Source of the DNA: a virus
DNA: 33,225 bases
IMG/VR virus record: IMGVR_UViG_3300009374_000020
Location: 1 to 33,225 of that record
Reading direction: 5' to 3' (one strand)
In this document: positions 1 through 32,899 of the stretch, piece after piece
How the letters are laid out: each line of letters starts with the position of its first letter
Position numbering within the stretch: the first letter of the stretch is position 1
Notes under the pieces: model-generated
Told to the model about the DNA's origin: nothing
The model's database searches: none
What the model saw: only the letters and a program-made list of their open reading frames with translations
Program-made: the position numbers and the translations under genes

Positions 1-353
1 AAAAAAAAAAAAAAAAAAAAAAAAAAGAAGAATAAAAATAAAAATATAACTTATGATAATAACTCTCTCTTGAGTGTTGATAGTTATGTTCATGAATGAA
101 TGCTTTGCTTTTGACTTTTTCAAATGGGTATGGGAGGGGTCTACAGATTACAAATGTTCCTACAATTAAATCAGTTAATCAATATTATGCTTTGAAGGGA
201 TATATTGCTTTGTTCGAATTCTAAACAAAGGTGTATTAATGACACCAAATTGAGGCTTGTTTCCTAACATAATATGCATTAAATTCAGACAGCAAATTTA
301 ATAATAATATATTCATCTTGTCATAAGAGGGATGAATAAAAAATGAGGGAAGA
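1..353. other. Gene-free left end with A-tract
   Basis: No convincing gene lies here. The window opens with 26 consecutive A residues followed by more A-rich sequence, which could be a true molecule end, a homopolymer or an assembly edge. A copy of the dispersed 23-bp palindrome lies at 208-230. It is followed by an AAAGGTG motif and a four-codon ORF (ATG at 239, stop at 251), too short to call as a gene. A weak promoter-like pair (TTGAGG at 250, TATGCA at 273, 17-base spacing) could drive the first gene, but the match is poor and unsupported. Confidence 0.5.
208..230. repeat. Dispersed 23-bp palindrome, copy 1
   Basis: Arms CTTTGTTC and AAACAAAG flank a seven-base centre GAATTCT. One arm base departs from the consensus GAACAAAG. 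The copy lies upstream of the first gene of the rightward arm and contains overlapping TTCGAA and GAATTC. Confidence 0.9.
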
Positions 354-374
354 ATGATAATGAAAGGAAGAATA

Positions 375-818
375 ATGAGAGAAAAAGATAACATATATCA
401 ATCTGGATTATTATCCCAAGAATCCTTAAATAAACTCCCAAGGACAGCTGTATTAAATTGTAGGTGTGATATTAAATCCCTTGCAACTATCCTATCCTTC
501 ATAATAGCAAAAGGGCATAGACCTCAATCAAAATCTGCAATCATTAGGACAGGGATAGATATGTTTGCAATCATCTTGAGGTTGAATGGGAAGGGAATGA
601 GTTTTGAGAAAACAGGGGAGGCATTAGTGTATCTTGAGAAACAAGGACTCTCTTTCCTTAAGGAGGGAGAGAAGAATAATTTAATTATGGAGATTCAAAA
701 GGAAAATATATCTACTGATTTTGATAACATTCCTATTCAACATGAAGGACAGGATATATCTGATGATGTTCAGAGAGCAATGTCTGAGTGGATGAATGAC
801 ATGGCTGATGAAAGATAA
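375..818 (+). CDS. Ribbon-helix-helix-like small phage protein
   Basis: A 147-residue protein of unknown function. Residues about 22-64 show a beta-strand (TAVLNCRCD), a helix ending in AKG, a short turn and a second amphipathic helix (SAIIRTGIDMFAIIL). This order resembles a ribbon-helix-helix DNA-binding fold, but the match is by eye only. The C-terminal half is charged and acidic. In-frame ATGs also occur at 354 and 360. I prefer 375 because AAAGGAAGAATA precedes it, the same ribosome-site layout used by several other genes here. It is the first gene of the rightward arm, downstream of palindrome copy 1. If it is RHH it could be an early regulator, which is inference. Confidence 0.7.
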   Translation: MREKDNIYQSGLLSQESLNKLPRTAVLNCRCDIKSLATILSFIIAKGHRPQSKSAIIRTGIDMFAIILRLNGKGMSFEKTGEALVYLEKQGLSFLKEGEKNNLIMEIQKENISTDFDNIPIQHEGQDISDDVQRAMSEWMNDMADER

Positions 819-896
819 TCAAGGGAATATATTAAAAAGATGTTGCATATGTCAAAATTTTGCTGTAAATTGTCAGTGTAATAATTAAAAAAAAAT

Positions 897-1433
897 ATGG
901 ACTTGACCATAGATAATAAACAAAAAAATCTAAAGATTGGATTTACAGGCTCAAGGAAGTTACCTTCTTTTGAGCAATATAATGCTATTAATACAATTCA
1001 ATCTAAATTGAGGAAAATGCTAATTATTGAAGATAGTAGTATTATTGAATTTCATCATGGAGATTGTATTGGAGCAGATAATCTTATTCAGAAAACCTTT
1101 TATAGTATGAAGAAATACTATGATGATAGAATACTATTAGTTATTCATCCTCCAACAAACTCATCCAAGAGAGCATTTTGTCCTGGAGATATTATTTATG
1201 AGAAATTTGATTACATTAAAAGAAATCATAATATTGTAGATAATACAAATATGTTAATTGCTTGTCCTGATGGATATGAAAGACAAAGGTCAGGAACTTG
1301 GGCAACTGTTAGATATGCAAGACAGAAAAAAAGATTTATAATAATTATCTACCCTGATGGTAAGATTGTTAAAGAGAATTCCAAGAATGGAATAAAATAC
1401 CTTCCTCTCACACTAATAGAGAGTGGGAGATGA
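897..1433 (+). CDS. SLOG/LOG-like nucleotide-binding Rossmann protein
   Basis: A 178-residue protein with the signature of the SLOG/DprA-like Rossmann superfamily: GFTGSR at residues 15-20, HHGDCIGAD at 53-61, HPP at 84-86 and GTWATVRYA at 133-141. Family members bind nucleotides or nucleotide-derived ligands. Related phage and bacterial proteins are mostly uncharacterised, and some SLOG proteins take part in antiviral signalling. The ligand and role here are unknown. The start at 897 follows an A-run with no visible Shine-Dalgarno, unlike most genes in this window, and there is no better in-frame start. It sits alone between two other small early genes. Confidence 0.75.
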   Translation: MDLTIDNKQKNLKIGFTGSRKLPSFEQYNAINTIQSKLRKMLIIEDSSIIEFHHGDCIGADNLIQKTFYSMKKYYDDRILLVIHPPTNSSKRAFCPGDIIYEKFDYIKRNHNIVDNTNMLIACPDGYERQRSGTWATVRYARQKKRFIIIIYPDGKIVKENSKNGIKYLPLTLIESGR

Positions 1434-1473
1434 AAGGAAGGAATTTGAATAATAAAACAGAAGGAGACATAAT

Positions 1474-1830
1474 ATGTCTATAGTTCATGCAACCTACAAT
1501 GAGAAAGACCCTGAGACAAAAGAAGTTATCTCAGCAACAGTTTATGATGTTGATTATAACTTCGGGGAAAATCTTGAAGAAGCCACACAACTCTTTGGAG
1601 AGAAAGTTGTTCTCTCAGCCTTTCAGGCAAGTGCAACAGTAACTCTCCAGTCAAGAATCCGAAGTCTTGCTAAGCAAGGAAAAGATGCTGATGAAATCAA
1701 AGAGATTTGTGCAAATTGGAAACCTGGTGTAACTGCTCCAAGAAAATCTCCTGTTGATAAGGTGATGGCGACTTATGAGAAAATGTCTGATGATGAGAAA
1801 GCTAAGTTCTTAGAAGCCCTCAAAGGTTAA
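1474..1830 (+). CDS. Conserved-looking small early phage protein, unknown function
   Basis: A 118-residue hydrophilic protein I do not recognise. A strong ribosome site (AAGGAGACATAAT) precedes the ATG. The N-terminal half looks beta-rich (SATVYDVDYNF). The rest is predominantly helical and charged, with KSPVDKVMATYEKMSDDEKAKF near the end split here as KSPVDKVMATY then EKMSDDEKAKF. Its codons include more C-ending triplets than its neighbours, which may reflect high expression. A long stem-loop follows 28 bases after the stop codon, suggesting this gene ends a transcript or has a stabilised 3' end. Confidence 0.7.
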   Translation: MSIVHATYNEKDPETKEVISATVYDVDYNFGENLEEATQLFGEKVVLSAFQASATVTLQSRIRSLAKQGKDADEIKEICANWKPGVTAPRKSPVDKVMATYEKMSDDEKAKFLEALKG

Positions 1831-1858
1831 TCATTCTCATATAAGATGAACATGAATA

Positions 1859-1942
1859 TCTCTCCTCTCACTCACCCAAGATTCCTCTCACAAAAAGACA
1901 CTGACCTATTTTTATATTCTGAGGAAGATGTGAGGGGAGAGA
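1859..1942 (+). other. Long imperfect stem-loop downstream of the 1474 gene
   Basis: TCTCTCCTCTCAC (1859-1871) pairs with GTGAGGGGAGAGA (1930-1942), giving 13 pairs with one G-U. Inside it TTCCTC (1882-1887) can pair with GAGGAA (1921-1926), and a run of A can pair with a run of T near the tip. A moderately T-rich tail (ATTCTTTT) follows. It could act as a terminator, an RNA-processing site ahead of the tRNA, or a 3'-end stabiliser. The pairing is visible in the sequence and the function is inferred. Confidence 0.6.
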
Positions 1943-1965
1943 ATTCTTTTGGTATGAATAAACAC

Positions 1966-1988
1966 CTTTGTTCAGATTATGAACAAAG
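1966..1988. repeat. Dispersed 23-bp palindrome, copy 2
   Basis: Perfect 8-base arms CTTTGTTC and GAACAAAG flank AGATTAT. The copy lies 14 bases upstream of the tRNA gene. Confidence 0.92.
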
Positions 1989-2002
1989 CATAATTAAGAA
2001 AT

Positions 2003-2074
2003 CGCAGGGTGGAGCAGAGGTAGCTCGCTTGACTCATAATCAAGAGGTCGGGGGTTCGATTCCCTCCCCTGCTA
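2003..2074 (+). tRNA. Initiator-like tRNA-Met (anticodon CAT)
   Basis: A full cloverleaf can be drawn by hand. The acceptor pairs GCAGGG with CCCTGC, the D stem is GAGC/GCTC, the anticodon stem is CTTGA/TCAAG around loop CTCATAA (anticodon CAT at 2035-2037), the variable loop is AGGTC and the T stem is GGGGG/CCCTC around TTCGATT. Two bacterial initiator hallmarks are present: an unpaired 1-72 position (C1 opposite U72) and an A11-U24 pair. The third hallmark, three consecutive G-C pairs at the base of the anticodon stem, is missing. Position 73 is A, followed by CAA rather than CCA, so the CCA tail would need to be added after processing. An intrinsic terminator follows 43 bases downstream. 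Palindrome copy 2 lies just upstream. A tRNA-Ile2 (lysidine-modified CAT) identity is less likely given the 1-72 mismatch. Confidence 0.9.
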
Positions 2075-2117
2075 CAAGAAGAAGATTGATTAAACAAACT
2101 GGACTGCTCTTCCAGAT

Positions 2118-2166
2118 AGAGGGAGTTGGGGTGTTATGAGCCTATTAAACAATTCCCTCTTTTTTA
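2118..2166 (+). terminator. Rho-independent terminator after the tRNA
   Basis: AGAGGGAGTTG (2118-2128) pairs with CAATTCCCTCT (2150-2160), 11 pairs with one G-U, followed directly by a T-run (2160-2165). It would end the tRNA transcript. From here to 2345 I see no gene, only smaller hairpins: AAAGAAAG at 2175 with CTTTCTTT at 2211, and an AAGG/CCTT hairpin followed by six T at about 2265-2275. A TATAAT at 2317 lacks a recognisable -35 partner. Confidence 0.85.
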
Positions 2167-2345
2167 TTCTAATCAAAGAAAGACTTCCTTTCATGAAGGT
2201 GATTGAAGGGCTTTCTTTCCATACATATATCCTTTATTAAAAGGTATTAGTGTGTGAAAGGGAGTCCTTCTTTTTTATGAAAGAATGACACAAAATTAAA
2301 CAACCTTAAAACTAAATATAATGGATAAAAGGAAAAGGACGAGGA

Positions 2346-2681
2346 ATGAAAAATAAAGTTTTTATAATTAATAAATCTGGGCATGATTTCTCAGATGCTA
2401 AGAGATTTGGAGATCTTATTTATTTATCAGAAGGAATGATTGATAGATATGCTATAACATCAATGTATAGGGAGTTTGTAGGAATTCTAAAAGAATCAAA
2501 TAAGGATGATTATATCCTCCTATCAGGATTGTCATCCATGTCTTCTATTGCTTGTTCAATCTTTGCATTTATACATGGAAGGTTAAATCTTTTGATATTT
2601 AGGAATGATAGATATATAACTAGAAAAATTGTGTTAAAAGAATTGATAGACCTTGAAGACCTTTTTGGTGAAAATGGATAA
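2346..2681 (+). CDS. Small phage protein, unknown function
   Basis: A 111-residue protein, alpha/beta in appearance. It opens with a strand (KVFIINKSG), has a central hydrophobic region (DYILLSGLSSMSSIACSIF) and a segment RLNLLIFRNDRYI. This gives a Rossmann-like alternation of strands and helices, but I cannot assign a family or activity. AAAAGGACGAGGA precedes the ATG. The gene follows the tRNA terminator, so it probably has its own promoter in the 2167-2345 gap. Palindrome copy 3 begins one base after its stop codon. Confidence 0.75.
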   Translation: MKNKVFIINKSGHDFSDAKRFGDLIYLSEGMIDRYAITSMYREFVGILKESNKDDYILLSGLSSMSSIACSIFAFIHGRLNLLIFRNDRYITRKIVLKELIDLEDLFGENG

Positions 2682-2704
2682 CTCTGTTCATATTCCGAAC
2701 AAAG
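2682..2704. repeat. Dispersed 23-bp palindrome, copy 3
   Basis: Arms CTCTGTTC and GAACAAAG flank ATATTCC, with one mismatch at the third arm position. The copy lies between two genes on the + strand. Confidence 0.88.
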
Positions 2705-2754
2705 GTGGTTTGTTAATAAAAACAGATAATAAAAAACAATAAGGAAGAATAATA

Positions 2755-3117
2755 ATGAAGAATGAACTTATATTAAATAAAGAAAGAATGGAAAGGATTA
2801 TTGATAACTTTATCAATGGACATATTCCTTTTACATTAAGTGTTGATAGAGAATGGAAGATAACTGCATCACATGGATTTATGGATGACTCAACCTTCAG
2901 GGAAGATATTAGATTTGTTCTCTGTCATTTTGATTTACTCATTAATTTTATTGATAGAATTATTATCGATAATGAGATGGCAAAAGCTGACCTTAGTGAT
3001 TTAGAGCATGAGCAATGTGAGAAGTTAGATAAAATTACTGACCTTGAAGATGTTTTGAGTGAGCAGAGAGTGAAGATTAATAAAATTAGATATCTTGTGA
3101 ATGAGAAAAGAAGATGA
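2755..3117 (+). CDS. Small protein with C-terminal coiled coil, unknown function
   Basis: A 120-residue protein with ribosome site AAGGAAGAATAATA before the ATG. The C-terminal third (about residues 75-118) is strongly charged with leucine/isoleucine spacing typical of a coiled coil (DLSDLEHEQCEKLDKI and onward). The N-terminal part is mixed alpha/beta. No catalytic motif is visible. The stop codon overlaps the next start as ATGA, so translation is probably coupled. Confidence 0.7.
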   Translation: MKNELILNKERMERIIDNFINGHIPFTLSVDREWKITASHGFMDDSTFREDIRFVLCHFDLLINFIDRIIIDNEMAKADLSDLEHEQCEKLDKITDLEDVLSEQRVKINKIRYLVNEKRR

Positions 3118-3275
3118 TTACAGGAACTTTCCTCATAAGTTACATGGCTCTCAGGATAATGGGAGGACATAAAAGTATTGAAGAATATCTTCCTCTATTT
3201 TTAGGAGGAAGTATATTATTTGATGTCTTATTATATATGGGTATTGCTGTTGAATACTTTGATAAGATGAATTAA
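3114..3275 (+). CDS. 53-residue membrane protein
   Basis: Small ORF starting within the ATGA overlap with the previous gene. It encodes a hydrophobic peptide with two candidate membrane segments, TFLISYMALRIMGG and LPLFLGGSILFDVLLYMGIA, and a short charged end. Translational coupling and gene-dense context support it as real. Function is unknown. Early phage membrane proteins of this size sometimes affect host membranes or superinfection, but nothing here shows that. Confidence 0.65.
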   Translation: MITGTFLISYMALRIMGGHKSIEEYLPLFLGGSILFDVLLYMGIAVEYFDKMN

Positions 3276-3302
3276 CAAAAAAAAAAGCAAGGAGAAATAA
3301 TA

Positions 3303-3542
3303 ATGCAACTTGAAATACAAATCATAGAAAAAGAGAAAGGTCAGAGGGCTAAAAAGATTCTAACATTTACAGTCCCATCAAAGTTGATCTTTTTAGGTAA
3401 AGTCAATGTTATCACAGGAATATATTCTGCTATCATGAGTTCTGTTAAGAGGATGGATAAGACAGTTGATGAGCAAGTAACAAAACATCTTGTAGAAGAA
3501 GAAATGAAAGGAGTAAGTGATGAAGCATACAATAACCTGTAA
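3303..3542 (+). CDS. Small early protein, unknown function
   Basis: A 79-residue protein with strong ribosome site AAGGAGAAATAATA. The N-terminal half is rich in alternating basic/acidic residues with beta-strands (QLEIQIIE, KKILTFTVPSKLIF). The C-terminal half is helical and acidic. No recognisable domain. The last 23 bases overlap the start of the zinc-finger gene that follows, whose ribosome site lies inside this gene. Confidence 0.65.
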   Translation: MQLEIQIIEKEKGQRAKKILTFTVPSKLIFLGKVNVITGIYSAIMSSVKRMDKTVDEQVTKHLVEEEMKGVSDEAYNNL

Positions 3543-3729
3543 TGAGTGTGAAGGAGAAGGTGTTGTTTCCATGAGTTGTTGTGGGGATAATATGCTTTAT
3601 GCAGATATAGATATCTGCCCAACCTGTGGAGAGCATTGTGGAATGGAGGAAGAAGAATGTGAGGAATGTGAAGGAGAGGGTGTTATTCCTATATCTATTC
3701 ATAAGAAAGATGAAGGAGGGGAAGGATGA
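3520..3729 (+). CDS. DnaJ-type zinc-finger (CxxCxGxG) small protein
   Basis: A 69-residue protein with two CxxCxGxG-type elements, CNECEGEG near the N-terminus and CEECEGEG near the C-terminus, separated by SCCGD and CPTCGEHCG. This is the arrangement of the DnaJ cysteine-rich zinc-binding domain, here standing alone without a J domain. It probably binds one or two zinc ions. Its partner is unknown. The ATG at 3520 follows AAAGGAGTAAGTG and is preferred to the in-frame GTG at 3517. The stop overlaps the next start (ATGA). Confidence 0.75.
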   Translation: MKHTITCNECEGEGVVSMSCCGDNMLYADIDICPTCGEHCGMEEEECEECEGEGVIPISIHKKDEGGEG

Positions 3730-3863
3730 TAACTATATTTAATTGGGTTGCTAATTTGTTCATGCTAGGTCTTAGTACTCTTTTTATAGGGTTAGGATTA
3801 TTCCTCCTAATTGTAATAATCATGACTATTATTGATGAGATTAGAAGGAGGAAAGAAAGATGA
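3726..3863 (+). CDS. 45-residue single-span membrane protein
   Basis: Small ORF in an ATGA overlap with the zinc-finger gene. It encodes a short N-terminus, one long hydrophobic helix (NLFMLGLSTLFIGLGLFLL continuing to about residue 36) and a basic tail RRRKER. The positive-inside rule suggests the C-terminus faces the cytoplasm. The stop again overlaps the next start (ATGA), and an AGGAGG-like site for the downstream gene lies in its last codons. Function unknown. Confidence 0.65.
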   Translation: MITIFNWVANLFMLGLSTLFIGLGLFLLIVIIMTIIDEIRRRKER

Positions 3864-4099
3864 GTATGGTTCCTGGAGATAAATTAAAATCATCTTGTCC
3901 TTGGTGTGATGGAGATATGGTTTGGGAAGCTATCATACATTGGGATGAGAGAGGAGCAGATAATCCTGATATTGTTGCTGTCTGTGATAATTGTGAGATA
4001 GCATATGAGCCTGCTGAACTCTCAAGAGTTCTAATGAGGGAAGGAAAATTAATTGAAGAAAAGGAGGTATATTTTGAAAAACCGACTACAAATGCATAA
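3860..4099 (+). CDS. Zinc-ribbon small protein
   Basis: A 79-residue protein with one CPWC knuckle at residues 13-16 and one CDNC knuckle at about 42-45, about 25 residues apart. This is a classic four-cysteine zinc ribbon. It is the third of three ATGA-coupled small genes after 3520. It overlaps the exonuclease gene by 26 bases, and the exonuclease ribosome site (AAGGAGG at 4061) is inside this gene. Possible roles include protein or nucleic-acid binding. No specific function can be claimed. Confidence 0.7.
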   Translation: MSMVPGDKLKSSCPWCDGDMVWEAIIHWDERGADNPDIVAVCDNCEIAYEPAELSRVLMREGKLIEEKEVYFEKPTTNA

Positions 4100-5063: not shown

Positions 5064-5081
5064 AATAAGGAAAATAATAAA

Positions 5082-5909: not shown

Positions 5910-5920
5910 TAAATAACAAA

Positions 5921-5943
5921 CTTTGTTCAGAATCCGAACAAAG
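5921..5943. repeat. Dispersed 23-bp palindrome, copy 4
   Basis: Perfect arms CTTTGTTC and GAACAAAG flank AGAATCC. The copy lies between the Sak4-like and DUF669-like genes. A small hairpin (CCTCT at 5959 with AGAGG at 5972) follows, just before the ribosome site of the next gene. Confidence 0.92.
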
Positions 5944-5992
5944 CAACATAAACAAACACCTCTCTTTAATAAGAGGGGAAGGAGAATAACAC

Positions 5993-6385: not shown

Positions 6386-6416
6386 TACAGCATAACAGTG
6401 TAACAGAGACGAATAG

Positions 6417-6462: not shown

Positions 6463-6479
6463 ATGAAAGATAAGAAGGT

Positions 6480-6698
6480 ATGCAAACTATTTTTAATAAA
6501 AAAGATAAGGTGGTTAGAATGAGTCCAGATGAATTAAAGGATATTATCATAGATGTTATAGGAAAATATCCTAATATGAATGTTAGTTCAATGAGTGCTA
6601 GGAAGATGGTAGCAAGAGAAATTATAATGGAGATTGCTCCTTTAGGTTTCTTTAATAAGTTTGAAGAAGATAATGAAAGGAAGAAAAAAGATGAGTGA
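6480..6698 (+). CDS. Small protein, unknown function
   Basis: A 72-residue lysine-rich protein of unknown function. An alternative start at ATG 6519 (residue 14, MSPDELKDII) follows AAGGTGG at better spacing than the AAGAAGGT directly abutting 6480, so the true product may be 59 residues. The remaining sequence is a helical region ending in a charged tail. It overlaps the following RHH gene by eight bases. Confidence 0.6.
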   Translation: MQTIFNKKDKVVRMSPDELKDIIIDVIGKYPNMNVSSMSARKMVAREIIMEIAPLGFFNKFEEDNERKKKDE

Positions 6699-6939
6699 AA
6701 TGAAAAGAATTGGTAGAGCAAGACTTTCTATTGATGTGAATGAGAAGCAGGAACAATTTCTCAGAGAATTTATACCTTGGGGAGTTAAGAATAAAGTATT
6801 TAGTGTTATTATAGATGATTTAATGAAGGCTGTTCAGAAACATGGGTCTAATGTGATAGGTGCTCTTGTTAGTAGACATATAACAACTATGAATTTTGTA
6901 AAAGAATTAGATGGAGAAAAAGATGGCAACGATAGATGA
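6691..6939 (+). CDS. Ribbon-helix-helix-like DNA-binding protein
   Basis: An 82-residue protein. Residues about 9-16 (RARLSIDV) would form the DNA-contacting beta-strand. They are followed by helix A (NEKQEQFLREF), a turn (IPWGVKN) and helix B (FSVIIDDLMKAVQKHG), the standard ribbon-helix-helix order. RHH dimers bind palindromic operators, which makes this a candidate binder for the dispersed 23-bp palindrome. That link is inference. The ATG at 6691 is chosen because GAAAGGAAG lies seven bases upstream; the upstream in-frame TTG and ATG lack such a site. Confidence 0.7.
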   Translation: MSEMKRIGRARLSIDVNEKQEQFLREFIPWGVKNKVFSVIIDDLMKAVQKHGSNVIGALVSRHITTMNFVKELDGEKDGNDR

Positions 6940-7158: not shown

Positions 7159-8523
7159 ATGAAATTACAAACAATAAAGACAGATAATGTAATTGTAAGA
7201 GATAGAGCAAGAGAAGATTTTGGGAACTTAAAAGAATTAATTGAATCATTTAAGAGAGAGGGAATAATCCAACCTCTTGCGGTTCAACAGACAGAGGAAG
7301 GATATATTCTTTTGGCAGGTGAGAGAAGATTAAGGGCTGCTAAAGAGAGTAAGATTGAAAATATTCCTGTTAGAATTTATGAAGAGGAATTATCAAATAT
7401 TGAAGTTAAGAGTATTGAACTTGCTGAGAATTTATATAGAAAGGATTTTGAGTGGCAGGAACAAGTTAAGTTGAAAAGTGATATTTGGGAGATTCAGCAG
7501 AAACTTCATGGAAAAAAGACATCTACAAGTCCTAATGCAAAGGGTGTTTCAAAGAGAGATGTTGCTTCTATTCTTGGAGATAGTCCTTCTGTTTTCACAG
7601 AAGATTTGAAGTTAGCAGAATTTATGAATGATATTCCTATATTAATGGAACAGAAGACAAAATCTGATGCTAAGAAAATGATGAAGAAATTAGAAAGAGA
7701 TGTTCAAACTTTTCATGCTGCTAAGGAATATAAGGAGAAAGAGGGAAAGAAGAGTATTAATAAAAAGATGAAAGGGATTATTGATAGTTATATTATTAAT
7801 GATTTCTTTAAGGGTGTGAAGAAGATAGGAGATAAAACAATAGATATTGTGGAGATTGACCCTCCTTATGCTATCAATCTAAAAGATCTAAAAAAGCAAT
7901 CAGGTGCTAAGACAGGAACACAAGAGTATAATGAAATTCCTATGGAAGAGTATGAAAAGTTTATGAAAAAAACTATTAAAGAATGTGTGAGAGTTATGAA
8001 GCAAGATAGTTGGTTACTTTGTTGGTTTGGTCCTGACCCTTGGTTTTCTATATTATGGAACATAATTAAAGATGAAGGTCTTGAAGGTATAGGAATCCCT
8101 GCTATTTGGTTTAAGGGAACTGGTCAGACAATGCAACCTAATTATTATATGGCTAATTCTTATGAAATGTTTTTCTATGCAAGGAAAGGAAAACCTGAAT
8201 TAAATGTAAAGGGAAGACCTAACGTCTTTCACTTTATGCCTGTCCCTCCTTCAAGAAAAATTCATCCTACAGAAAGACCTATTGAGATGATTTCTGAAAT
8301 CCTTAATGTTTTTGGAAGATTAGGTTCAACTGTTATGATACCCTTTCTTGGCTCTGGTAATACTATATTAGCAGCTAATAATAGAAAGATGAATGGCTTT
8401 GGTTTTGAGCTTTCTGAAACATATAAGAATAGATTTATTGAGAAAGTTAGTGGAATGAATATAATTGATTCTTTTAAGTCATATACAATTCCTGATAATC
8501 TTGATAAAAAGAAGGAAAGATAA
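7159..8523 (+). CDS. ParB-like/DNA methyltransferase fusion (beta-class, N6-adenine or N4-cytosine)
   Basis: A 454-residue two-domain protein. Residues 1-110 are a ParB/Srx-like nuclease domain with GERRLRAAK at 54-62 and ELAENLYRKD at 87-96. A helical, lysine-rich linker follows to about 205. The C-terminal half is an S-adenosylmethionine-dependent amino-methyltransferase: DPPY catalytic motif IV at 234-237, HPTERP at 369-374 and FLGSGNT motif I at 396-402. Motif IV before motif I marks the beta class. ParB-methylase fusions are known in phages and may protect or mark phage DNA. The target site cannot be read from sequence. The HNH gene follows two bases downstream, so the two may form a modification-linked pair. 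The gene contains only two CpG dinucleotides in 1365 bp. Confidence 0.88.
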   Translation: MKLQTIKTDNVIVRDRAREDFGNLKELIESFKREGIIQPLAVQQTEEGYILLAGERRLRAAKESKIENIPVRIYEEELSNIEVKSIELAENLYRKDFEWQEQVKLKSDIWEIQQKLHGKKTSTSPNAKGVSKRDVASILGDSPSVFTEDLKLAEFMNDIPILMEQKTKSDAKKMMKKLERDVQTFHAAKEYKEKEGKKSINKKMKGIIDSYIINDFFKGVKKIGDKTIDIVEIDPPYAINLKDLKKQSGAKTGTQEYNEIPMEEYEKFMKKTIKECVRVMKQDSWLLCWFGPDPWFSILWNIIKDEGLEGIGIPAIWFKGTGQTMQPNYYMANSYEMFFYARKGKPELNVKGRPNVFHFMPVPPSRKIHPTERPIEMISEILNVFGRLGSTVMIPFLGSGNTILAANNRKMNGFGFELSETYKNRFIEKVSGMNIIDSFKSYTIPDNLDKKKER

Positions 8524-9093: not shown

Positions 9094-9116
9094 CTTTGTT
9101 CAGAATTCGAACAAAG
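9094..9116. repeat. Dispersed 23-bp palindrome, copy 5
   Basis: Perfect arms CTTTGTTC and GAACAAAG flank AGAATTC, giving the commonest version of the repeat with overlapping GAATTC and TTCGAA. It lies upstream of the structured leader of the polymerase operon. TATAAT at 9085-9090 lies directly before it, which would put the palindrome at the transcription start, but no -35 box matches. Confidence 0.93.
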
Positions 9117-9243: not shown

Positions 9244-9438
9244 ATGATAGACATAAAGAATCTTGATGAAACTGTTATGCAATCTAAAACAGTTGAGCAT
9301 ATAATAAAATTTCTAATGTATGGAAATAATGGAAGGATTGAATATAAGAAGAGTAAGAAAAGATTAATAAACTATTTTTATGTATGTAGAAATAAAATAA
9401 ATAAAAGAAGAGGAGGAGTTAGTGCAAAGAATAATTGA
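9244..9438 (+). CDS. 64-residue basic protein, unknown function
   Basis: Small basic protein starting at ATG 9244 behind a strong AAAGGAGAAATAAA site. An in-frame ATG at 9160 lies inside the structured leader and has no ribosome site, so it is not used here. The sequence is helical then increasingly basic (EYKKSKKRLINYF, NKINKRRGG). The final 17 bases overlap the polymerase start, and the polymerase ribosome site (GAGGAGG) is inside this gene, indicating translational coupling. Function unknown; a polymerase accessory role is only a guess from position. Confidence 0.7.
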   Translation: MIDIKNLDETVMQSKTVEHIIKFLMYGNNGRIEYKKSKKRLINYFYVCRNKINKRRGGVSAKNN

Positions 9439-11881
9439 TACTAGGCAGACTATAAAAAGAAGGATTGAAGGAAAAGGAAATAAGGAAGGAAAGATTGCTT
9501 TTGTTGGAGAATATCCTATTGGACAAGATATAAAAGCAGGAGAACCTTTATCAGGCCTTTCTGGAGAATTATTAAATAGTTTAATGCATACAACTGGAAT
9601 TGTTCGTTCAAACTGTTATATTACCCAAGTTATAAAAGAAGAAGTTAGGAAGGGTAGCTTAAAAGAAATTATAGATATAAAAAAAAGAATTCCAATTGAG
9701 TCTGATAAATTCAAAAGATATATGGAGGAACTAAAGAAGGAGTTAGAAGGAACAAAAGCAAATGTTATTGTAGCAGTTGGTGAAATTGCTTTATGGGCTC
9801 TAACGGGAATGAAGAGTGTAACAAAAAGAAGAGGTTCAATATATGAATCTTCTTTATTGGTGGGAAGAAAAGTTATACCTATTATTCATCCTTTAACTGC
9901 TATAAGACAGTATAATTTTAGGCACTTCATAGTATATGATTTAAGAAGAATTAAGAATGAGAGTGAGTTTCCTGAAGTTATTAGGAGGGAGAAGAATATG
10001 ATTATTCAACCTTCCTATATGGATGTTATGGAATTCTTAGCCAAATGCTCAGGTGTGAGTATGGTTGCCTTTGATATTGAGGTATCTAATGAAGAGGTTA
10101 ATTGTATAAGTTTTGCTTATAATGATAAGAATGTTATATCCATACCTTTTTTGAGGGGAGGGCAGGATTATTTTAATCCTAATCAGGAGGTATCAATATG
10201 GAAAGCCATATCTTATATTCTTGAGAATAGGGAAATTATTAAGTTAGCGCAGAATGGTGTTTTTGACTCAACTTTTTTATTAAGAAAATATGGTATAAAT
10301 GTTAGACCTATTGATGATACAATGGTAGCTCAGGCCATATTAATTCCTGACTTCCCCAAAGGTCTTGATTTTATAACATCTATTTATACAAATAATCCTT
10401 ATTATAAAGATGAAGGAAAGTTTAGGATAAAATCAGGAAGTGGAAGTGATAGAGATTTCTGGATGTATAATGCAAAAGATTCTATTGTTTTAATGGAGGC
10501 TTTTCCTAGGATGCTTGAAGAGTTGAGAGGGATGAAGAATATGGAAACTTATAGGAGACAGGTTAAGATGGTTGAACCTCTTGTTTATATCTCTGAAAGA
10601 GGGATAAGAATGGATGTGAAAGGGCTGAGAGATGAATCAAGAAGGGTTGGGAAGGAACTAGAATTTTGTGAAGAAGAATTGAATAAAATGACAAAGGGTG
10701 AGATTAATAATCCAAGAAGTCCTAAACAAGTTGCTGATTACTTTTACATAAGAAAGAGCATAAAGCCTTATGTTAATAGGAGTACAGGAAGACCTACAAC
10801 TAATGACGTTGCTTTAAAGAGGATTGCAAGAAAAGGATTTAAGGAGGCTGAGATTCTTCAAAAGATTAGAGGGATGGGAAAGATGAAATCTACCTATCTT
10901 GATATGAATCTTGATAAGGATGGAAGGATTAGATGTAATATGAATCCTGTAGGAGCTGCTGATTCAGGCAGGTTATCTTCATCTAAGACAATCTTTGGAA
11001 CAGGTGCTAATATGCAAAATCAGCCTTGGGAAATGAAAAAGTATATGTTGGCTGATGAAGGTTATATAATGTATAATATTGACCTTTCACAAGCAGATAA
11101 TAGATGTGTTGCATATGTTGCTCCGGAATTTGAGATGATACAGGCTTTTGAGACAGGAGTAGATGTTCATACAAAAACAGCCTCTTTAATATTTAAGAAG
11201 TCTTTAGATGAGATATCAAATAAGTCAGGGTCTAGTGTGATTGGAGATGGTAGGCACTCTGAAAGATTCTGGGGGAAGAAAGCAAATCACTCATTAAATT
11301 ATGGGGAAGGTTATAAAAGGTTTGCATTAGATAATGAAATACCTGAAAATGATGCGAAAGAAATTGTAGAGAGTTATCATTCTGTATATCCTGGTATAAG
11401 ACAGTATCATTCCTGGATTGAGAATCAATTAAGGGTGAATGGAAGAGTGTTAGAGAATCCTTATGGAAGAAGAAGAACATTTATGAGTAGATGGGGACAT
11501 GACCTCTTTAAAGAGGCTTATAGTTGGATACCTCAATCAACAGTTGCTGATAAGATGAATAAGGATGGTATTCTCTTTGTTTATTATAATCAACAGTGGT
11601 TTCATGATGTAGAAATATTAAATCAAGTTCATGACTCTCTAGTCTTTCAGATTCCTATATCAATAGGTTGGGAAAAGCATGCTGATATTATATTAAAAAT
11701 TAAGAGGTCTTTAGAATCAAGTATATCTTGGAGAATACAAACCTTCAATATCCCGACTGATATAGATGTTGGATTAAATTTAGGAAAGATGGGTGGAATA
11801 AGTGGATGGAAAAATAATCCTAGTTTAATTGATGTCTCAAAAGAGTTAGAAAGGATATATGAAGAATGTCTAGAAATGTAA
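9422..11881 (+). CDS. Family A DNA polymerase with N-terminal uracil-DNA-glycosylase-like domain
   Basis: An 819-residue replicative polymerase. Residues about 24-178 resemble a family 4/5 uracil-DNA glycosylase (VGEYPIGQD at 28-36, EPLSGLSG at 41-48, CYITQVIKE at 65-73, IIHPLTAIR at 154-162), a fusion known from SPO1-like phage polymerases. The 3'-5' exonuclease follows with FDIEVSN at 217-223 (Asp218, Glu220), NGVFD at 278-282 and YNAKDS at 349-354. The polymerase part has motif A DLSQADNR at 554-561, motif B RFWGKKANHSLNYG at 615-628 and motif C QVHDS at 735-739. The motif B position usually Phe or Tyr is His623. The GTG start at 9422 follows AGAGGAGGAGTTA. It overlaps both neighbours. It probably replicates the phage genome with the downstream helicase-like protein. 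Confidence 0.92.
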   Translation: MQRIIDTRQTIKRRIEGKGNKEGKIAFVGEYPIGQDIKAGEPLSGLSGELLNSLMHTTGIVRSNCYITQVIKEEVRKGSLKEIIDIKKRIPIESDKFKRYMEELKKELEGTKANVIVAVGEIALWALTGMKSVTKRRGSIYESSLLVGRKVIPIIHPLTAIRQYNFRHFIVYDLRRIKNESEFPEVIRREKNMIIQPSYMDVMEFLAKCSGVSMVAFDIEVSNEEVNCISFAYNDKNVISIPFLRGGQDYFNPNQEVSIWKAISYILENREIIKLAQNGVFDSTFLLRKYGINVRPIDDTMVAQAILIPDFPKGLDFITSIYTNNPYYKDEGKFRIKSGSGSDRDFWMYNAKDSIVLMEAFPRMLEELRGMKNMETYRRQVKMVEPLVYISERGIRMDVKGLRDESRRVGKELEFCEEELNKMTKGEINNPRSPKQVADYFYIRKSIKPYVNRSTGRPTTNDVALKRIARKGFKEAEILQKIRGMGKMKSTYLDMNLDKDGRIRCNMNPVGAADSGRLSSSKTIFGTGANMQNQPWEMKKYMLADEGYIMYNIDLSQADNRCVAYVAPEFEMIQAFETGVDVHTKTASLIFKKSLDEISNKSGSSVIGDGRHSERFWGKKANHSLNYGEGYKRFALDNEIPENDAKEIVESYHSVYPGIRQYHSWIENQLRVNGRVLENPYGRRRTFMSRWGHDLFKEAYSWIPQSTVADKMNKDGILFVYYNQQWFHDVEILNQVHDSLVFQIPISIGWEKHADIILKIKRSLESSISWRIQTFNIPTDIDVGLNLGKMGGISGWKNNPSLIDVSKELERIYEECLEM

Positions 11882-13055: not shown

Positions 13056-13078
13056 CTTTGTTCAGAATTCGAACAAAG
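13056..13078. repeat. Dispersed 23-bp palindrome, copy 6, between the convergent arms
   Basis: Perfect arms CTTTGTTC and GAACAAAG flank AGAATTC. This copy takes up most of the 42-bp gap between the convergent replication and structural operons. There is no T-run on either side, so it is not a standard intrinsic terminator. Confidence 0.93.
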
Positions 13079-18728: not shown

Positions 18729-18751
18729 CTGTGTTCAGAATTCGAACAAAG
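18729..18751. repeat. Dispersed 23-bp palindrome, copy 7
   Basis: Arms CTGTGTTC and GAACAAAG flank AGAATTC, with one mismatch at the third arm position. The copy lies between the glycine-zipper gene and the peptidoglycan-binding gene on the leftward operon. Confidence 0.9.
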
Positions 18752-23322: not shown

Positions 23323-23541
23323 CTATCCTCTTATTGCTAAATCCATATCTGTTTCAAGAGATACAGATAATTCAACTCCATTAATCTTTGAATAACCCTG
23401 AGCATTTTTTGATTCAACTTCTCTATGATTAACATTAATCCACCTAATTTGAACATCTGTCTTTTCTTCAAAACTTTTTAGAATATTCTCAACTTTTTTC
23501 TGAGTATTCTCAATTTCTTTTTTTAACTTCTTTATTGTCAT
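23323..23541 (-). CDS. Small coiled-coil protein between capsid and adaptor
   Basis: A 72-residue protein. The first 30 residues form a lysine-rich coiled coil (KKLKKEIENTQKKVENILKS). The rest is a short beta-rich tail. I choose ATG 23541 because AAAGGTG lies eight bases upstream. The longer in-frame start at 23571 would lie inside palindrome copy 8. The AAAGG ribosome site is itself partly the 3' arm of that palindrome. Function unknown; its place suggests a head or connector assembly protein. Confidence 0.65.
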   Translation of the reverse strand: MTIKKLKKEIENTQKKVENILKSFEEKTDVQIRWINVNHREVESKNAQGYSKINGVELSVSLETDMDLAIRG

Positions 23542-23550
23542 AATATTCAC

Positions 23551-23573
23551 CTTTGTTCGAATTATGAACAAAG
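23551..23573. repeat. Dispersed 23-bp palindrome, copy 8, overlapping a ribosome site
   Basis: Perfect arms CTTTGTTC and GAACAAAG flank GAATTAT. In the leftward transcript, the 3' arm (ending CAAAG) continues into GTG to give the AAAGGTG ribosome site of the coiled-coil gene. It directly abuts the terminator-like hairpin after the capsid gene and supplies that hairpin's T-rich tail. Confidence 0.93.
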
Positions 23574-23596
23574 TGGGGAGGGGTTAATCTCCCCAC
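23567..23596 (-). terminator. Terminator-like hairpin after the major capsid gene
   Basis: On the - strand GTGGGGAG pairs perfectly with CTCCCCAC (arms 23589-23596 and 23573-23580) around an eight-base loop. It is followed by TTTGTTC, moderately T-rich. It lies 32 bases after the capsid stop and could cut transcription so that capsid mRNA exceeds downstream mRNA, as the terminator after T7 gene 10 does. The comparison is by position; termination is inferred. Confidence 0.75.
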
Positions 23597-26444: not shown

Positions 26445-26454
26445 AATTGTTCTC

Positions 26455-26477
26455 CTTTGTTCAGAATCTGAACACAG
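26455..26477. repeat. Dispersed 23-bp palindrome, copy 9, overlapping a ribosome site
   Basis: Arms CTTTGTTC and GAACACAG flank AGAATCT, with one mismatch at the third arm position. Read on the transcribed - strand the 3' arm is intact and runs into GAG, forming the AAAGGAG ribosome site of the 26196-26444 gene. Confidence 0.92.
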
Positions 26478-28439: not shown

Positions 28440-28447
28440 ATTTCCTC

Positions 28448-29125: not shown

Positions 29126-30729
29126 ACTTGACTCCCTTCAAAATATGTAGGAGTTGGACAAGTTTCATAATTCTCCCAATTAATCTTATCTTTTCTATCT
29201 CCCTCATACATATCTAATAATTCTTTATATTCATCCTCAGGATCTCCTGCAAATCCTCCAGGCATAAAGTATGTAAGGGACATTTCCATCAACTCCACAA
29301 TATATGCAGCTGCATCCATAATATCCCATCTCTTCGATTTCGGAAATCCTAAAAGCTGTTTTTCATAAGCCCCACAACCTACCTCATTATGATATATTAA
29401 TCCTTGTCTATAATATGAAACAAGAGAAGCAACCCTTGCTTTCTTTCCTCCATGTAATCCAGAGAATTCACCCTTTCCAGATCTTGCTTTCAGCCATACA
29501 AGGTCAAAATTATATCCTAACCTAATCATCTCATTCCTCAGAGGATGCTTAATAAACTCTTCAAGTCCTGTTACCTCAACAGCAAGAGTTCTTGAACCAT
29601 ATCTCATACATGTATTAAAAGCATCAGTATATAATTGCTCAGGATGATAAAATTCTCCTCTTGCTTCCCTCATATACATAGCTCCTGTTTCAGAATCGAT
29701 ACTCCATACAACAATTCCAGATTGAGCATTATGTAACTTTGTTGTCTTAGCAGGATCTATTATAACAACATGAGCCATTGATGATTTCCTATCAATGAAT
29801 TTTTTATCTCCTTCCTGATAATACTGAAAATACTCTGCACTAAACGAAGCATCTTCCTTAGATATAGGAATACTCTGATATTCTCTTGCAAAGACATCCA
29901 TAATCTTTTCTCTTCGATGCCTTTTCAACTCATTATCAAGATCTTTTTGAGATACAAAAGTTGGAGCAAGAGTATGATACTCATCATCACAAATACTTAA
30001 CCTTAAGCCATCCCAATCATCTGACTCTAAGAGGTGTTCAATTAAACTATCTTCATGCTTCACAGTATCAATATATATGTATCTCCAATCTTTCCCAATC
30101 ATTGGTTTAGCTTTCTCAACATCTCCAGTAAACCAAATCAATCTTTTCTTCCTTTGATCTTCATTATCAAGGGTATCTGTATCTTCAAGGTCATCTATGA
30201 TAAATAAATCAGGTCTATATCTAATCCAATTCTGTCCCCTGATTTGCTGACCACTTCCTCTAGGAACAATAATAGTATGTCCATTAGCTACCCATGTTTT
30301 CTTAGAGAACATTTTAGACTCATCCTTTCTAAGGTCAAGAGAAGATTCCCTAATATGCCCAAAAATCTGTGATACACCATCTGCAGTTAATAATTCCATC
30401 TTAATATTCTCAGTCTGCATCTCAGCTGATGTTGCAGAATTAGATATATAATCAATAAATCTCTTATCTCTATAAAGGATTGACTTAGCAGCAACAGTTC
30501 TTGCAATTGTTGTTTTCCCAATTCCTCTAGGAGCAGCTATTACAATCTTATTCCCTCCTTCATCAATCAAGTCAAAAATCTGGTCATGGAGGGGGCTGAA
30601 TTCTGCATTAAATGTATCTGGAAAGAAAGTCTTTGCAAACAACTTTGTAGACCGATAACATTCTACAAGAATATCATCAAGAGTAGAATCTCCTGTCATA
30701 AGAGATTTATCTGGGTCTATTTGTTTCAA
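29122..30729 (-). CDS. Terminase large subunit (TerL)
   Basis: A 535-residue packaging motor. Walker A APRGIGKTT lies at residues 66-74 and Walker B LFIIDDLED at 175-183. The nuclease domain shows VVIIDPAKT (Asp325), AVEVTG (Glu385) and WDIMDAAAY (Asp469/Asp472). TerL pumps DNA into the procapsid and cuts concatemers. No terminase small subunit was recognised in the window, so it may be unusual, very small or outside. The start is probably TTG at 30729, overlapping the previous stop as TTGA with weak ribosome signal; an in-frame ATG lies at 30699 but also lacks a good site. Confidence 0.9.
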   Translation of the reverse strand: MKQIDPDKSLMTGDSTLDDILVECYRSTKLFAKTFFPDTFNAEFSPLHDQIFDLIDEGGNKIVIAAPRGIGKTTIARTVAAKSILYRDKRFIDYISNSATSAEMQTENIKMELLTADGVSQIFGHIRESSLDLRKDESKMFSKKTWVANGHTIIVPRGSGQQIRGQNWIRYRPDLFIIDDLEDTDTLDNEDQRKKRLIWFTGDVEKAKPMIGKDWRYIYIDTVKHEDSLIEHLLESDDWDGLRLSICDDEYHTLAPTFVSQKDLDNELKRHRREKIMDVFAREYQSIPISKEDASFSAEYFQYYQEGDKKFIDRKSSMAHVVIIDPAKTTKLHNAQSGIVVWSIDSETGAMYMREARGEFYHPEQLYTDAFNTCMRYGSRTLAVEVTGLEEFIKHPLRNEMIRLGYNFDLVWLKARSGKGEFSGLHGGKKARVASLVSYYRQGLIYHNEVGCGAYEKQLLGFPKSKRWDIMDAAAYIVELMEMSLTYFMPGGFAGDPEDEYKELLDMYEGDRKDKINWENYETCPTPTYFEGSQV

Positions 30730-30872
30730 CTTTTCGGCTCACTAACTTTAATAATTTCAATAGTAATTTCATCTTGAAAGGTAAAATCTTCATCCTCCAC
30801 TCCTTCATCTGAAAGAATAATTTTCCCTTCATCAACAATCGCAAGATAATATCCTTCATAATCTCTACTCAT
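30726..30872 (-). CDS. 48-residue acidic protein ahead of terminase
   Basis: Small ORF between tailspike and terminase genes. It begins five bases after the tailspike stop and ends in a TTGA overlap with the terminase start. The product is acidic and beta/loop-like (YYLAIVDEGKIILSDE, then EITIEIIKV). It has a modest upstream AAGAGG-type site. Tight packing between two real genes supports it. A terminase accessory role is possible from position but not shown. Confidence 0.65.
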   Translation of the reverse strand: MSRDYEGYYLAIVDEGKIILSDEGVEDEDFTFQDEITIEIIKVSEPKS

Positions 30873-30877
30873 AATAA

Positions 30878-32473
30878 TCAACCAACCTCTTTTATAAGAG
30901 TAACTTTTCCTCTCATTAATTTAGTAACATTACTTGAAGCATCAACAACCTCTAAATCATAAACACCATAGGTAAAGTCATAGCTTGAAGTATCAGCTGC
31001 AGGAATATCTATCTCAATAGTTCCATTAGCCCCCCCAAGAGTTATCTCACTTCCTGATGTTAAGGAATCAATTTGTGTTCCTCCAATCCTATCATAAATG
31101 CTCATAGTTGCTGAATAATTAGTTAAATCAACAGCATCTTCATTAGAGTCTTTCCATAAAAGGGTTCTCTTAAAATTAGCACCTTGCTCAATATCAAGAT
31201 TAAATTTTCCTGCAGTCATATTAATTTTCCTTTCATATCTCTCAGTAATTATTATATTAGATGTTTCAACAGTCAGAGTTGTATTTTTATCATATCTATC
31301 ATCAATAACAGAATAATCTCCATCCCATCTAACAAAGAATTTTCCTCCTTTGGCTTCCAGAGTTATAACATCATAAGGATAAGCATATTGACTAACTCCA
31401 TTAATCGTAACAGTTACTCTATCTGTAATTGTATCAAGATTATGTCCACCCCCATAACTTCCAACATCTGATGTATCTTCTCCATGTGCAGGAGGTATAT
31501 GAGCATCATTCTCTCCTGCTCCCCCACCCCACAAATCAATACAAGGACTATCTGATTGAAGAGTAAAGTCATAAATATCTGGATTAATAAATTTAGGATA
31601 CATTGAATAAGAATGACTTCTAATTACCCAATGAGCATCATTAGGATTTACAAAGGCACTTGCAGGAAGTTCCATATCACATCCATATAAATACTCTGTC
31701 CCCTTTCCTAGTGTTCCTAAACCTACAGATCTTATTGTATATCTAGCAGGAAATCCTCTCCTCCCATCTCCACAAGCATAATAGATATTATTCCATATTG
31801 AAAGAGATACAAAAGTAGCAGGTGTTCCCGATTGATAGTGAACAAATATTCCCATAGTCATCCTATAGAAAACATTCTGATATACTTCAAGAATGCTCTG
31901 ATGATGATAATTCTGTCTTCTATATATACCTACAATAATATTCTCAGGCTCAGGTTGATAATAATATCCTTTAACCTTATCATTAATTGGAGTATAATCT
32001 CCAACAAAATCACAGTTAGATATATAAACATGAAGAAAATTATCTGATGCTCCTTGAACATCAATACTTCTATAAATTGTTTTATTAAGAAATAAAGATA
32101 CAAGATTAAAATTAGTATGAGCAAGAAATATAATATTCCTTATTTCCACACTTTTTGTAATAAGAAGATTTCCATCATCACTAATATAAAATAAAACTGA
32201 CCCATCAAAAATAGGTTTCTTTCCATCAGTAGGATATGGTTGAACAGTTACATTATGATAACTATCAACTGAATCAATAAAAATCCATTGAGGTTCATAT
32301 GACTCACAAGAATAAGTAAGTCCACCCTTAATATAAACATCTACATCAAGATTAGTTGTATTAGCAACTCCACTTCCTGGTGCAAATACCTTATCAAGAG
32401 TTTTATAAGGAGCTTCAATAGAACCATCTCCTGTTGTATCATCCCCTAAAATTCCATGAATATAGACATCCAT
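30878..32473 (-). CDS. Beta-helix tailspike/fibre protein with C-terminal phage tail domain
   Basis: A 531-residue protein. The N-terminus has GDDTTGDGSIEAPYKTL at residues 10-26, the entry motif of right-handed beta-helix proteins, followed by beta-helix-like repeats with many Asn and aromatic residues to about 330. A linker follows (TVTINGVSQYAYPYD). Residues about 419-531, beginning MTAGKFNLDIEQGANFKRTL, match a widespread free-standing tail-associated domain. That domain has its own in-frame ATG (31219) behind AAAGGAAAATTAAT, so a shorter 113-residue product may also be made. The protein probably recognises a host surface glycan or protein. No clear lyase residues were identified. Confidence 0.8.
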   Translation of the reverse strand: MDVYIHGILGDDTTGDGSIEAPYKTLDKVFAPGSGVANTTNLDVDVYIKGGLTYSCESYEPQWIFIDSVDSYHNVTVQPYPTDGKKPIFDGSVLFYISDDGNLLITKSVEIRNIIFLAHTNFNLVSLFLNKTIYRSIDVQGASDNFLHVYISNCDFVGDYTPINDKVKGYYYQPEPENIIVGIYRRQNYHHQSILEVYQNVFYRMTMGIFVHYQSGTPATFVSLSIWNNIYYACGDGRRGFPARYTIRSVGLGTLGKGTEYLYGCDMELPASAFVNPNDAHWVIRSHSYSMYPKFINPDIYDFTLQSDSPCIDLWGGGAGENDAHIPPAHGEDTSDVGSYGGGHNLDTITDRVTVTINGVSQYAYPYDVITLEAKGGKFFVRWDGDYSVIDDRYDKNTTLTVETSNIIITERYERKINMTAGKFNLDIEQGANFKRTLLWKDSNEDAVDLTNYSATMSIYDRIGGTQIDSLTSGSEITLGGANGTIEIDIPAADTSSYDFTYGVYDLEVVDASSNVTKLMRGKVTLIKEVG

Positions 32474-32479
32474 AATCTA

Positions 32480-32899
32480 TCAACCCTTTGTTCGAATTCC
32501 GAACATAGTTAATGTTTCAGCCAAATCCCTTGCTCTTCTTGGTGTCTGTTTTGCCCACTTACTATCAAGCATCTCTTTCCCAGCTTTCTCCCATTCTTTC
32601 TTCTTCAACAGTTCAATAGTCTTAACAAACTGCATAAAGCCATTTAATCCAATCTGATATATCATCTCAACAATCACATCTTGAACAGTTTGAGGCATCT
32701 CTCTAAACCACCAGAAACTTTCATAGCACCTAACAGTAGTATTAGCCAATTTCCGCTCCAAAATGATGGAGGCAATATCCTCATCCAGCCGTAGGTCTTT
32801 TATTGCGAAGCCGTAGCCGATGGTGAGATTCCCTTCAGAGTCATTGTAAACCCTGTTCCTGAATCCCTCATGCTTCTTGATTGAATCAATCAGATTCAT
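32480..32899 (-). CDS. Endolysin, T4-type lysozyme (GH24)
   Basis: A 139-residue lysozyme of glycoside hydrolase family 24. The catalytic triad is at T4 positions: Glu11 in HEGFR, Asp20 in YNDSEG and Thr26 in LTIGYG. It cleaves peptidoglycan at the end of infection. The holin-like gene overlaps by one base (TAATG), a usual holin-endolysin pair. Its last six residues before the final Gly are encoded by palindrome copy 10. The first 50 residues use CpG-containing codons, whereas the remainder has almost none, suggesting a mosaic gene. Confidence 0.92.
   Translation of the reverse strand: MNLIDSIKKHEGFRNRVYNDSEGNLTIGYGFAIKDLRLDEDIASIILERKLANTTVRCYESFWWFREMPQTVQDVIVEMIYQIGLNGFMQFVKTIELLKKKEWEKAGKEMLDSKWAKQTPRRARDLAETLTMFGIRTKG
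32486..32508. repeat. Dispersed 23-bp palindrome, copy 10, inside the lysozyme gene end
   Basis: Arms CTTTGTTC and GAACATAG flank GAATTCC, with one mismatch at the third arm position. Unlike the other copies it lies within coding sequence, specifying lysozyme residues near the C-terminus. In the leftward transcript its intact 3' arm runs into GG, giving the AAAGGG ribosome-site-like sequence before the tailspike ATG. Confidence 0.92.

Follow-up and report, generated by a model that had tools for sequence, protein, structure and literature searches.

Dispersed palindromes of a phage genome as predicted loading sites of its own ParB-like methyltransferase fusion

Sequence comparison within one phage clade indicates that the ten 23-bp palindromes dispersed over a linear 33 kb phage record (33,225 nucleotides, the whole stretch analysed and hereafter the window) are probably parS/OB-like loading sites of the phage's own ParB-like methyltransferase fusion, which would act with a small RHH-like partner protein. 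We put the probability of this reading at roughly three in four. As is typical of parS/OB-type sites, the palindromes are several in number, dispersed, and carried by the replicon that also encodes the proposed ParB-type reader. In the proposed mechanism, the HTH of the fusion would read the inner half-site with a fusion dimer sitting on the palindrome dyad, and the RHH-like protein would probably contact the outer CTATG/CATAG box, in the way that KorA is a partner of KorB. Clamps, predicted to be NTP-gated, would load at the sites and slide away. Since sites occur every 3–4 kb on both arms, loaded sliding clamps could reach the whole genome, and there they would methylate or shield phage DNA, control transcription globally, or both.

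When the window was searched, ten copies of CTTTGTTC-N7-GAACAAAG were found as originally described, five of them exact and the other five each differing at one arm base, compared to a mean of 0.36 copies in dinucleotide shuffles (0 of 100 reached 10). The mismatch falls at the third arm base in copies 3, 7, 9 and 10 and at the eighth arm base in copy 1, again as had been claimed. The palindromes, which are assigned to neither strand, lie at 208–230 (copy 1), 1966–1988 (copy 2, 14 bp ahead of the tRNA-Met at 2003–2075 and inside a probably spurious ORF), 2682–2704 (copy 3, immediately 3' of a stop codon), 5921–5943 (copy 4, preceding a DUF669/SSB-like gene), 9094–9116 (copy 5), 13056–13078 (copy 6, where the early and late arms converge), 18729–18751 (copy 7), 23551–23573 (copy 8, 3' of the capsid gene and touching ORF 23323–23571 only in its TTG-start extension), 26455–26477 (copy 9, in the gap between the portal gene and the next gene, where the 3' arm overlaps a Shine-Dalgarno sequence) and 32486–32508 (copy 10). 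Nine copies are intergenic, and the exception is copy 10, which overlaps the final codons of the lysozyme ORF (32480–32899). CpG is indeed rare in the window (observed/expected 0.11), and TTCGAA is present in six palindrome copies and six times in the window in total. The further claim that symmetry stops at exactly 8 bp held for this genome, where the flanking base is never paired, but it was local only, since symmetric sites in relatives reach 29 bp, e.g. TTGCTATGTCCCAA-a-TTGGGACATAGCAA. Because the window is shorter than the genomes of its relatives (approximately 45–50 kb), it may lack additional copies.

Relatives were sought by an exact-arm scan of viral contigs, from which only multi-copy contigs were taken further; the many single matches look like chance or other sequence and were set aside. 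A search by terminase alone returned one weak locus, and a genome scan returned only four MAG-binned contigs, with no host assignable. A dispersed palindrome family was found in 43 of the 45 analysed contigs that encode the fusion, each genome with its own sequence. Among held-out genomes with the fusion, 14 of 19 contained such a family, one (G076) contained a weak family, and in four (G077, G082, G090 and M295) no clear family was seen in the portions examined. There were up to 20 copies per genome, with letters that vary from genome to genome; the copies avoid genes and occur once per approximately 3–4 kb. Palindromes lay 3' of the capsid gene in 22 of 29 relatives and 3' of DUF3987 in 17 of 32, compared to about 3–4 expected in each case, filling the junctions equivalent to those of copies 8 and 6, respectively. 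These findings answer the concern, raised with the original prediction, that related phages might lack the motif at equivalent positions: diverged palindromes occupy those junctions.

The spacing of the copies was more even than chance (CV of 0.50 compared to 0.97 under the null, and below the null mean in 31 of 31 genomes), and this evenness spans all gene classes. An intergenic palindrome is typical of operators, and a host DNA-binding protein whose operators are exploited by phages would account for such sites, but such an origin is very improbable, as the sites have their own sequence in each relative, shift in step with a phage protein and are evenly spaced across all gene classes. Genome-wide even spacing would also suit packaging, partition or replication sites of some other phage protein, and dispersed centromere-like sites are known from phage-plasmids. 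We give this alternative equally little credence: scanning the proteins of the window, which is a fragment, revealed no ParA-type gene, and covariation points to the ParB helix.

The sites are often found directly 3' of stop codons and their 3' arm often overlaps a Shine-Dalgarno sequence, as an RNA hairpin would if it acted in intercistronic gaps as a terminator, a translation element or a processing site. The pattern of changes makes a hairpin highly unlikely, however. In transcript sense, tolerated mismatches were A.C (68) more often than G.U (28), and single-sided changes numbered 61 compared to 9 compensated ones. Moreover, U-tracts were mostly absent and no Rfam family was matched, so that the U-tract or conserved stem of an intrinsic terminator or RNA hairpin family was not found. 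The A.C mismatches and single-sided changes support the earlier preference for a dimeric DNA-binding protein over a hairpin. A promoter module was also considered and rejected: computation found no conserved −10/−35 columns in the upstream half, and the downstream half was judged by eye. A weak transcript-orientation bias was observed among the sites (77 sense, 45 antisense and 76 ambiguous), which may come from the 3' arm acting as a Shine-Dalgarno sequence.

To return to the proposed loading sites, the inner pairs of the palindromes were found to vary with the ParB recognition helix (r=0.383, p=0.0005) and the outer pairs with the RHH-like strand (r=0.333, p=0.006) in partial Mantel tests on 38 genomes against a PolA background, tests of a kind that can be anticonservative. 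The cross terms of both comparisons were near zero. When 2357 protein windows in eight proteins were ranked for the inner pairs, the ParB helix window was second, and an exonuclease window was on a level with it. Portal and TerL windows had scored above the helix in an earlier scan with fewer genomes, and one PolA segment was also high-scoring; we tentatively read the high portal, TerL and PolA-segment scores as lineage effects together with small samples.

The covarying helix residue aligns with Gln158 of Noc, equivalent to Arg173 of C. crescentus ParB, which contacts parS G1, or A1 when the residue is Gln (PMC7383237). The aligned residue of the window is Pro143 (codon 7585–7587, + strand), at the position that covaries with site pair 6. 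In the phages, His was found with G at site pair 6 in 13 of 15 cases compared to 2 of 39 otherwise, and Gln with A in 4 of 4 compared to 0 of 50 otherwise (Fisher tests, without phylogeny correction). The His rule was fixed in writing before the held-out proteins were read. In the held-out genomes, His accompanied G in 4 of 4 cases compared to 0 of 9, Gln accompanied A in 2 of 2, and a further held-out genome (G071) had His together with GGTTA-N5 palindromes. Independent pairs on the tree agreed in direction (3.8 compared to 1.0, and 3.0 compared to 0), their number being too few for significance.

The gene for the fusion, the proposed reader of the inner half-site, lies at 7159–8523 (+ strand), its assignment as a ParB_N-HTH-N6/N4 methyltransferase resting on Pfam, an AF2 model, fold matches and covariation. 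ParB_N was recognised at the N-terminus (Pfam, 4.7e-14), and residues 2–96 of the model match M. xanthus ParB (Z 15.5, 1.7 A, 32% identity). Boxes I–III are near-invariant, with I37, P39, G54, R56, R57, E90 and N91 invariant across 33 homologues, as in proteins of the ParB-CTPase fold. Helices were predicted in the HTH region (residues 129–158; 7543–7632, + strand), which aligned weakly to the Noc HTH; the fold matches listed by VIA-align were mostly to methyltransferases, so that missing HTH matches in that list are uninformative. Residues 203–435 are a methyltransferase, and the canonical C-terminal dimerisation domain of ParB is absent; the methyltransferase domain might dimerise in its place. 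The motifs EIDPPY and PFLGSGNT and a fold match to M.BceJIV (Z 24.9) place it among beta-class N6/N4 DNA methyltransferases. Motif IV is altered yet the sites are kept in a Desulfofustis phage (DFPY), G061 (DIDY), G045 (DPDF) and G048 (DSPY), which counts against methylation as the sole output.

The RHH-like protein, the proposed outer-box reader and partner of the fusion, is encoded at 6691–6939 (+ strand) by a gene conserved next to that of the fusion, and it tracks the outer CTATG box. It had no significant Pfam match and no significant PDB sequence match, and its single-sequence structure model was poor (pLDDT 53). This protein alone might read the palindrome as an operator and be a global phage regulator, with the fusion a mere neighbour. 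In 24 of 40 genomes (4.2 expected) a palindrome was found at most 300 bp ahead of the RHH-like gene, which itself precedes the fusion, a finding that fits the loading-site reading as well; the outer pairs track the N-terminal strand, and the gene is missing from two outgroup phages, Mel-JY34 and VS-ABTNL-3, which have a more diverged fusion but no palindrome family. These two phages lack both the gene and the palindromes, so presence and absence cannot separate the two proteins. We consider this explanation unlikely, as the strand is nearly constant whereas the inner half-site changes freely, and the inner pairs do not track the strand (r 0.04) but follow the ParB helix, at a residue known to contact parS. 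Both proteins were on the list of binders originally proposed and are the two best candidates. The earlier interpretation is partly supported: it made no choice among operator, stoperator, packaging or partition site and punctuation; the evidence favours a parS/OB-like site of the fusion, and transcription punctuation was not supported.

A single phage protein binds the numerous scattered stoperators of a mycobacteriophage, and the present sites resemble these in number, dispersal and a predicted phage-encoded reader. Stoperators lack symmetry and follow the direction of transcription, whereas the present sites are near-perfect palindromes, one of them between convergent genes, and track a ParB-type HTH. 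Another related system is that of KorB, whose operators are dispersed over the replicon. KorB of plasmid RK2 (IncP) is a ParB-fold CTPase clamp with an HTH, 16-bp palindromic operators, a small DNA-binding partner and long-range action (PMC11790492). The phage system, its roles being predicted, resembles KorB/OB and KorA/OA in its ParB-fold protein with a putative HTH, dispersed palindromic sites, small candidate partner protein and, by prediction, action at long range. In contrast to KorB, the phage fusion carries a methyltransferase, and its sites are approximately 23–29 bp and evenly spaced over the phage genome; unlike KorA with its separate OA, the phage partner would share the fusion's own site. 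With ParB-parS and Noc-NBS the phage system shares boxes I–III, a putative HTH, a dyad site and, by covariation on the phage side, the same residue position at which Gln reads A and a basic residue reads G (PMC7383237). It differs in that a methyltransferase replaces the C-terminal dimerisation domain, in that a ParA-type gene was not recognised among the scanned window proteins, and in that its sites diverge from genome to genome. Excerpts of a recent report (Kaljevic et al. 2025, PMC12704722) describe fusions of a ParB-CTPase fold to an N6_N4 methyltransferase as enriched in phages; the window fusion has the same Pfam architecture, and those excerpts give neither a DNA site nor a tested function for such fusions.

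To these fusions, which are common in phages, we add covariation, candidate cognate sites for over 50 genomes from a single phage clade, and a specificity rule that can be read off directly, pairing His with G and Gln with A. As to output, the odds of whole-genome methylation or shielding are about even, KorB-like silencing is somewhat less probable, and the fusion itself may have a role akin to partition. The natural protein/site pairs allow direct tests of binding, NTP gating, sliding and methylation, and the clade offers a natural laboratory for protein-DNA co-evolution in which the whole site set of a genome shifts with one helix. We propose only tentatively that the fusion is a self-loading, genome-painting methyltransferase, a ParB-type NTP-gated clamp that would start from evenly spaced two-protein palindromes, slide from one to the next and so modify or coat the whole genome; if true, it would be a modification or anti-restriction machine of a kind so far undescribed.

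The window is a linear virus record of 33,225 bp with 34% G+C and represents a tailed-phage segment. Its early arm, on the plus strand, encoded exonuclease-like, AAA, DUF669/SSB-like, ParB-methyltransferase, UDG-PolA (a family A DNA polymerase with a fused uracil-DNA glycosylase domain, 9422-11881) and DUF3987 proteins, and the late arm lay on the minus strand. The nearest named phage, Desulfofustis phage LS06-2018-MD01, shared the gene order, with 42%, 53% and 39% identity for terminase, capsid and portal, respectively. The ten copies of the 23-bp palindrome (208-32508) were found exactly where the original prediction had placed them, compared to 0.36 expected, and none of 100 shuffled sequences reached ten. 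The CpG observed/expected ratio was 0.11, extreme beside G001 (0.44), G022 (0.47), the Desulfofustis phage (0.60), G016 (1.08) and G020 (1.21) among the relatives. A run of 26 A at 1-26, at the record start, is possibly an assembly edge. A tRNA-Met(CAT) gene was located at 2003-2075, 14 bp 3' of copy 2, and a terminator-like GC-rich hairpin (GTGGGGAGGGGTTAATCTCCCCAC, 23573-23596) abutted copy 8, 3' of the capsid gene.

An exact-arm scan of viral contigs, the first route to relatives, followed by whole-contig searches, yielded seven multi-copy contigs, all distant relatives of the window phage, with the same outer arms as the window and a spacer own to each. More relatives were gathered by the capsid protein and by the ParB-methyltransferase, and the motif was not used as a criterion. 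When 45 contigs were searched de novo for repeated palindromes, 43 had a dispersed family; for part of these contigs, the presence of the palindrome had been known before their full sequences were read. A family was present in 29 of 30 long contigs reached via the fusion protein; the exception, G034, had a weak 24-bp version (sequence L141). In this variant the dyad was one base longer, and in a 22-bp variant (L123) one base shorter. Related phages, in which the original prediction proposed to look for the motif, had dispersed palindrome families, their sequence differing from genome to genome. One sequence was repeated at the sites within a genome, up to 20 times in approximately 50 kb; between genomes, the inner half-site varied freely and the outer CTNTG box was mostly retained (TTGCTATGTCCCAA-a-TTGGGACATAGCAA; CTATGGTAAAT-a-ATTTACCATAG; CTATGGGGAAT..ATTCCCCATAG; TTGCTATGTTACAT-a-ATGTAACATAG; CTGAGCGGTCAA..TTGACCGCTCAG). 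No such family was found in five more distant phages (Mel-JY34, VS-ABTNL-3, Kuura, PaP2 and Tiera); Mel-JY34 and VS-ABTNL-3 encoded a diverged fusion and lacked the RHH-like protein. The palindrome is a clade-wide element.

The sites avoided genes (124 of 360 inside called ORFs compared to 330 expected). Their spacing was more even than that of random gene junctions in 31 of 31 genomes tested (mean CV 0.50 vs 0.97), with p<0.05 in 24. Sites occupied the junctions 3' of the capsid gene in 22 of 29 genomes, 3' of DUF3987 in 17 of 32 and 5' of the RHH-like gene in 24 of 40, where approximately 3-4 were expected for each. An RNA stem is not the conserved feature, because tolerated mismatches in the transcript sense were more often A.C (68) than G.U (28) and single-sided arm changes outnumbered compensated ones 61 to 9, which bears out the earlier claim that the uncompensated arm mismatches fit a conserved RNA hairpin poorly. 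In an Rfam search, tRNA was the only match.

The AF2 model of the fusion (7159-8523, plus strand; pLDDT 84.8) matched ParB structures over residues 2-96 (Z 15.5; 1.7 A); over approximately residues 203-435 it matched methyltransferases of the beta class, M.BceJIV and CcrM among them (Z 24.9; 2.2 A). ParB boxes I-III were near-invariant among the fusions. Methyltransferase motif IV was DPPY in most, and was altered, with sites and HTH kept, in the Desulfofustis phage (L035, DFPY), G045 (DPDF), G048 (DSPY) and G061 (DIDY).

The beginning of the HTH recognition helix was among the fusion columns with the strongest association with the inner half-site, and this helix ranked first in a window scan within the fusion. 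Among 2357 windows from eight phage proteins, scanned against a PolA background, the ParB helix took second place for the inner pairs, on a par with a window of the exonuclease; for the outer pairs, the N-terminal strand of the RHH-like protein (6691-6939, plus strand) ranked seventh. In a permutation test restricted to these two candidate contact elements, the correlation of inner pairs with the helix was r 0.383 (p 0.0005), that of outer pairs with the strand was r 0.333 (p 0.006), and the cross terms were near zero. Site and residue switched repeatedly on the PolA tree: the sisters G001 and G065 had TTCA with Phe and TCCA with His, respectively, and a GGTAA/His group lay next to G052 and L154 (TTCA, no His). 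Residue 314 in the methyltransferase domain (GIPAIW, 8098-8100), the top score in one fusion column scan, also covaried with pair 6 (Pro/Met vs Cys/Glu/Thr), which perhaps reflects an additional contact with DNA or an effect of lineage.

A rule that the residue after GxS is His when pair 6 is G, and in no other case, was fixed before further proteins were fetched. A site could be scored in 13 held-out genomes, and among these His was present in 4/4 with G and 0/9 others. Gln was present in 2/2 held-out genomes with A, a rule first noticed during this test and not predicted. One more genome, G071, had His, and its palindromes turned out to be of the GGTTA-N5 type. Over all genomes, His occurred in 13/15 with G compared to 2/39 otherwise, and Gln in 4/4 with A compared to 0/50 otherwise; tree-based independent pairs had the same direction and were too few for significance. 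The residue, Pro143 in the window protein (7585-7587), aligned with B. subtilis Noc Gln158 (7ol9, in a weak second segment), the counterpart of C. crescentus ParB Arg173; in that ParB, Arg contacts G1 and Gln contacts A1 of parS (PMC7383237). Pair 6 and its partner span 13 bp, and position 1 of parS and its partner 14 bp, and therefore the geometry is close. Contig G074 (64 kb) encoded two fusions, L300 and L301, with His and Lys as helix residues; either two genomes were mixed in the assembly or this phage has both systems.

Dispersed operators for a ParB-type protein, as proposed here for the fusion, are already known for RK2 KorB (PMC11790492), and PMC12704722 describes the ParB-N6_N4 methyltransferase fusion as a phage architecture. 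Searches of open-licence papers turned up neither the combination of the two nor the even spacing across whole genomes, the division of reading between inner and outer pairs, or the covariation from genome to genome.

We propose that the fusion most likely loads onto the palindromes as a ParB-type clamp, that the RHH-like protein would assist loading from its place at the outer box, and that the loaded fusion would spread over a few kb to the next site. Methyltransferases of the beta-class type often dimerise, and the methyltransferase may therefore stand in for the absent C-terminal dimerisation domain. As for the output, global silencing is a candidate well alive because the motifs of some members are altered and the system resembles KorB-KorA; we lean to whole-genome modification or shielding as the candidate because most members retain the methyltransferase motifs.
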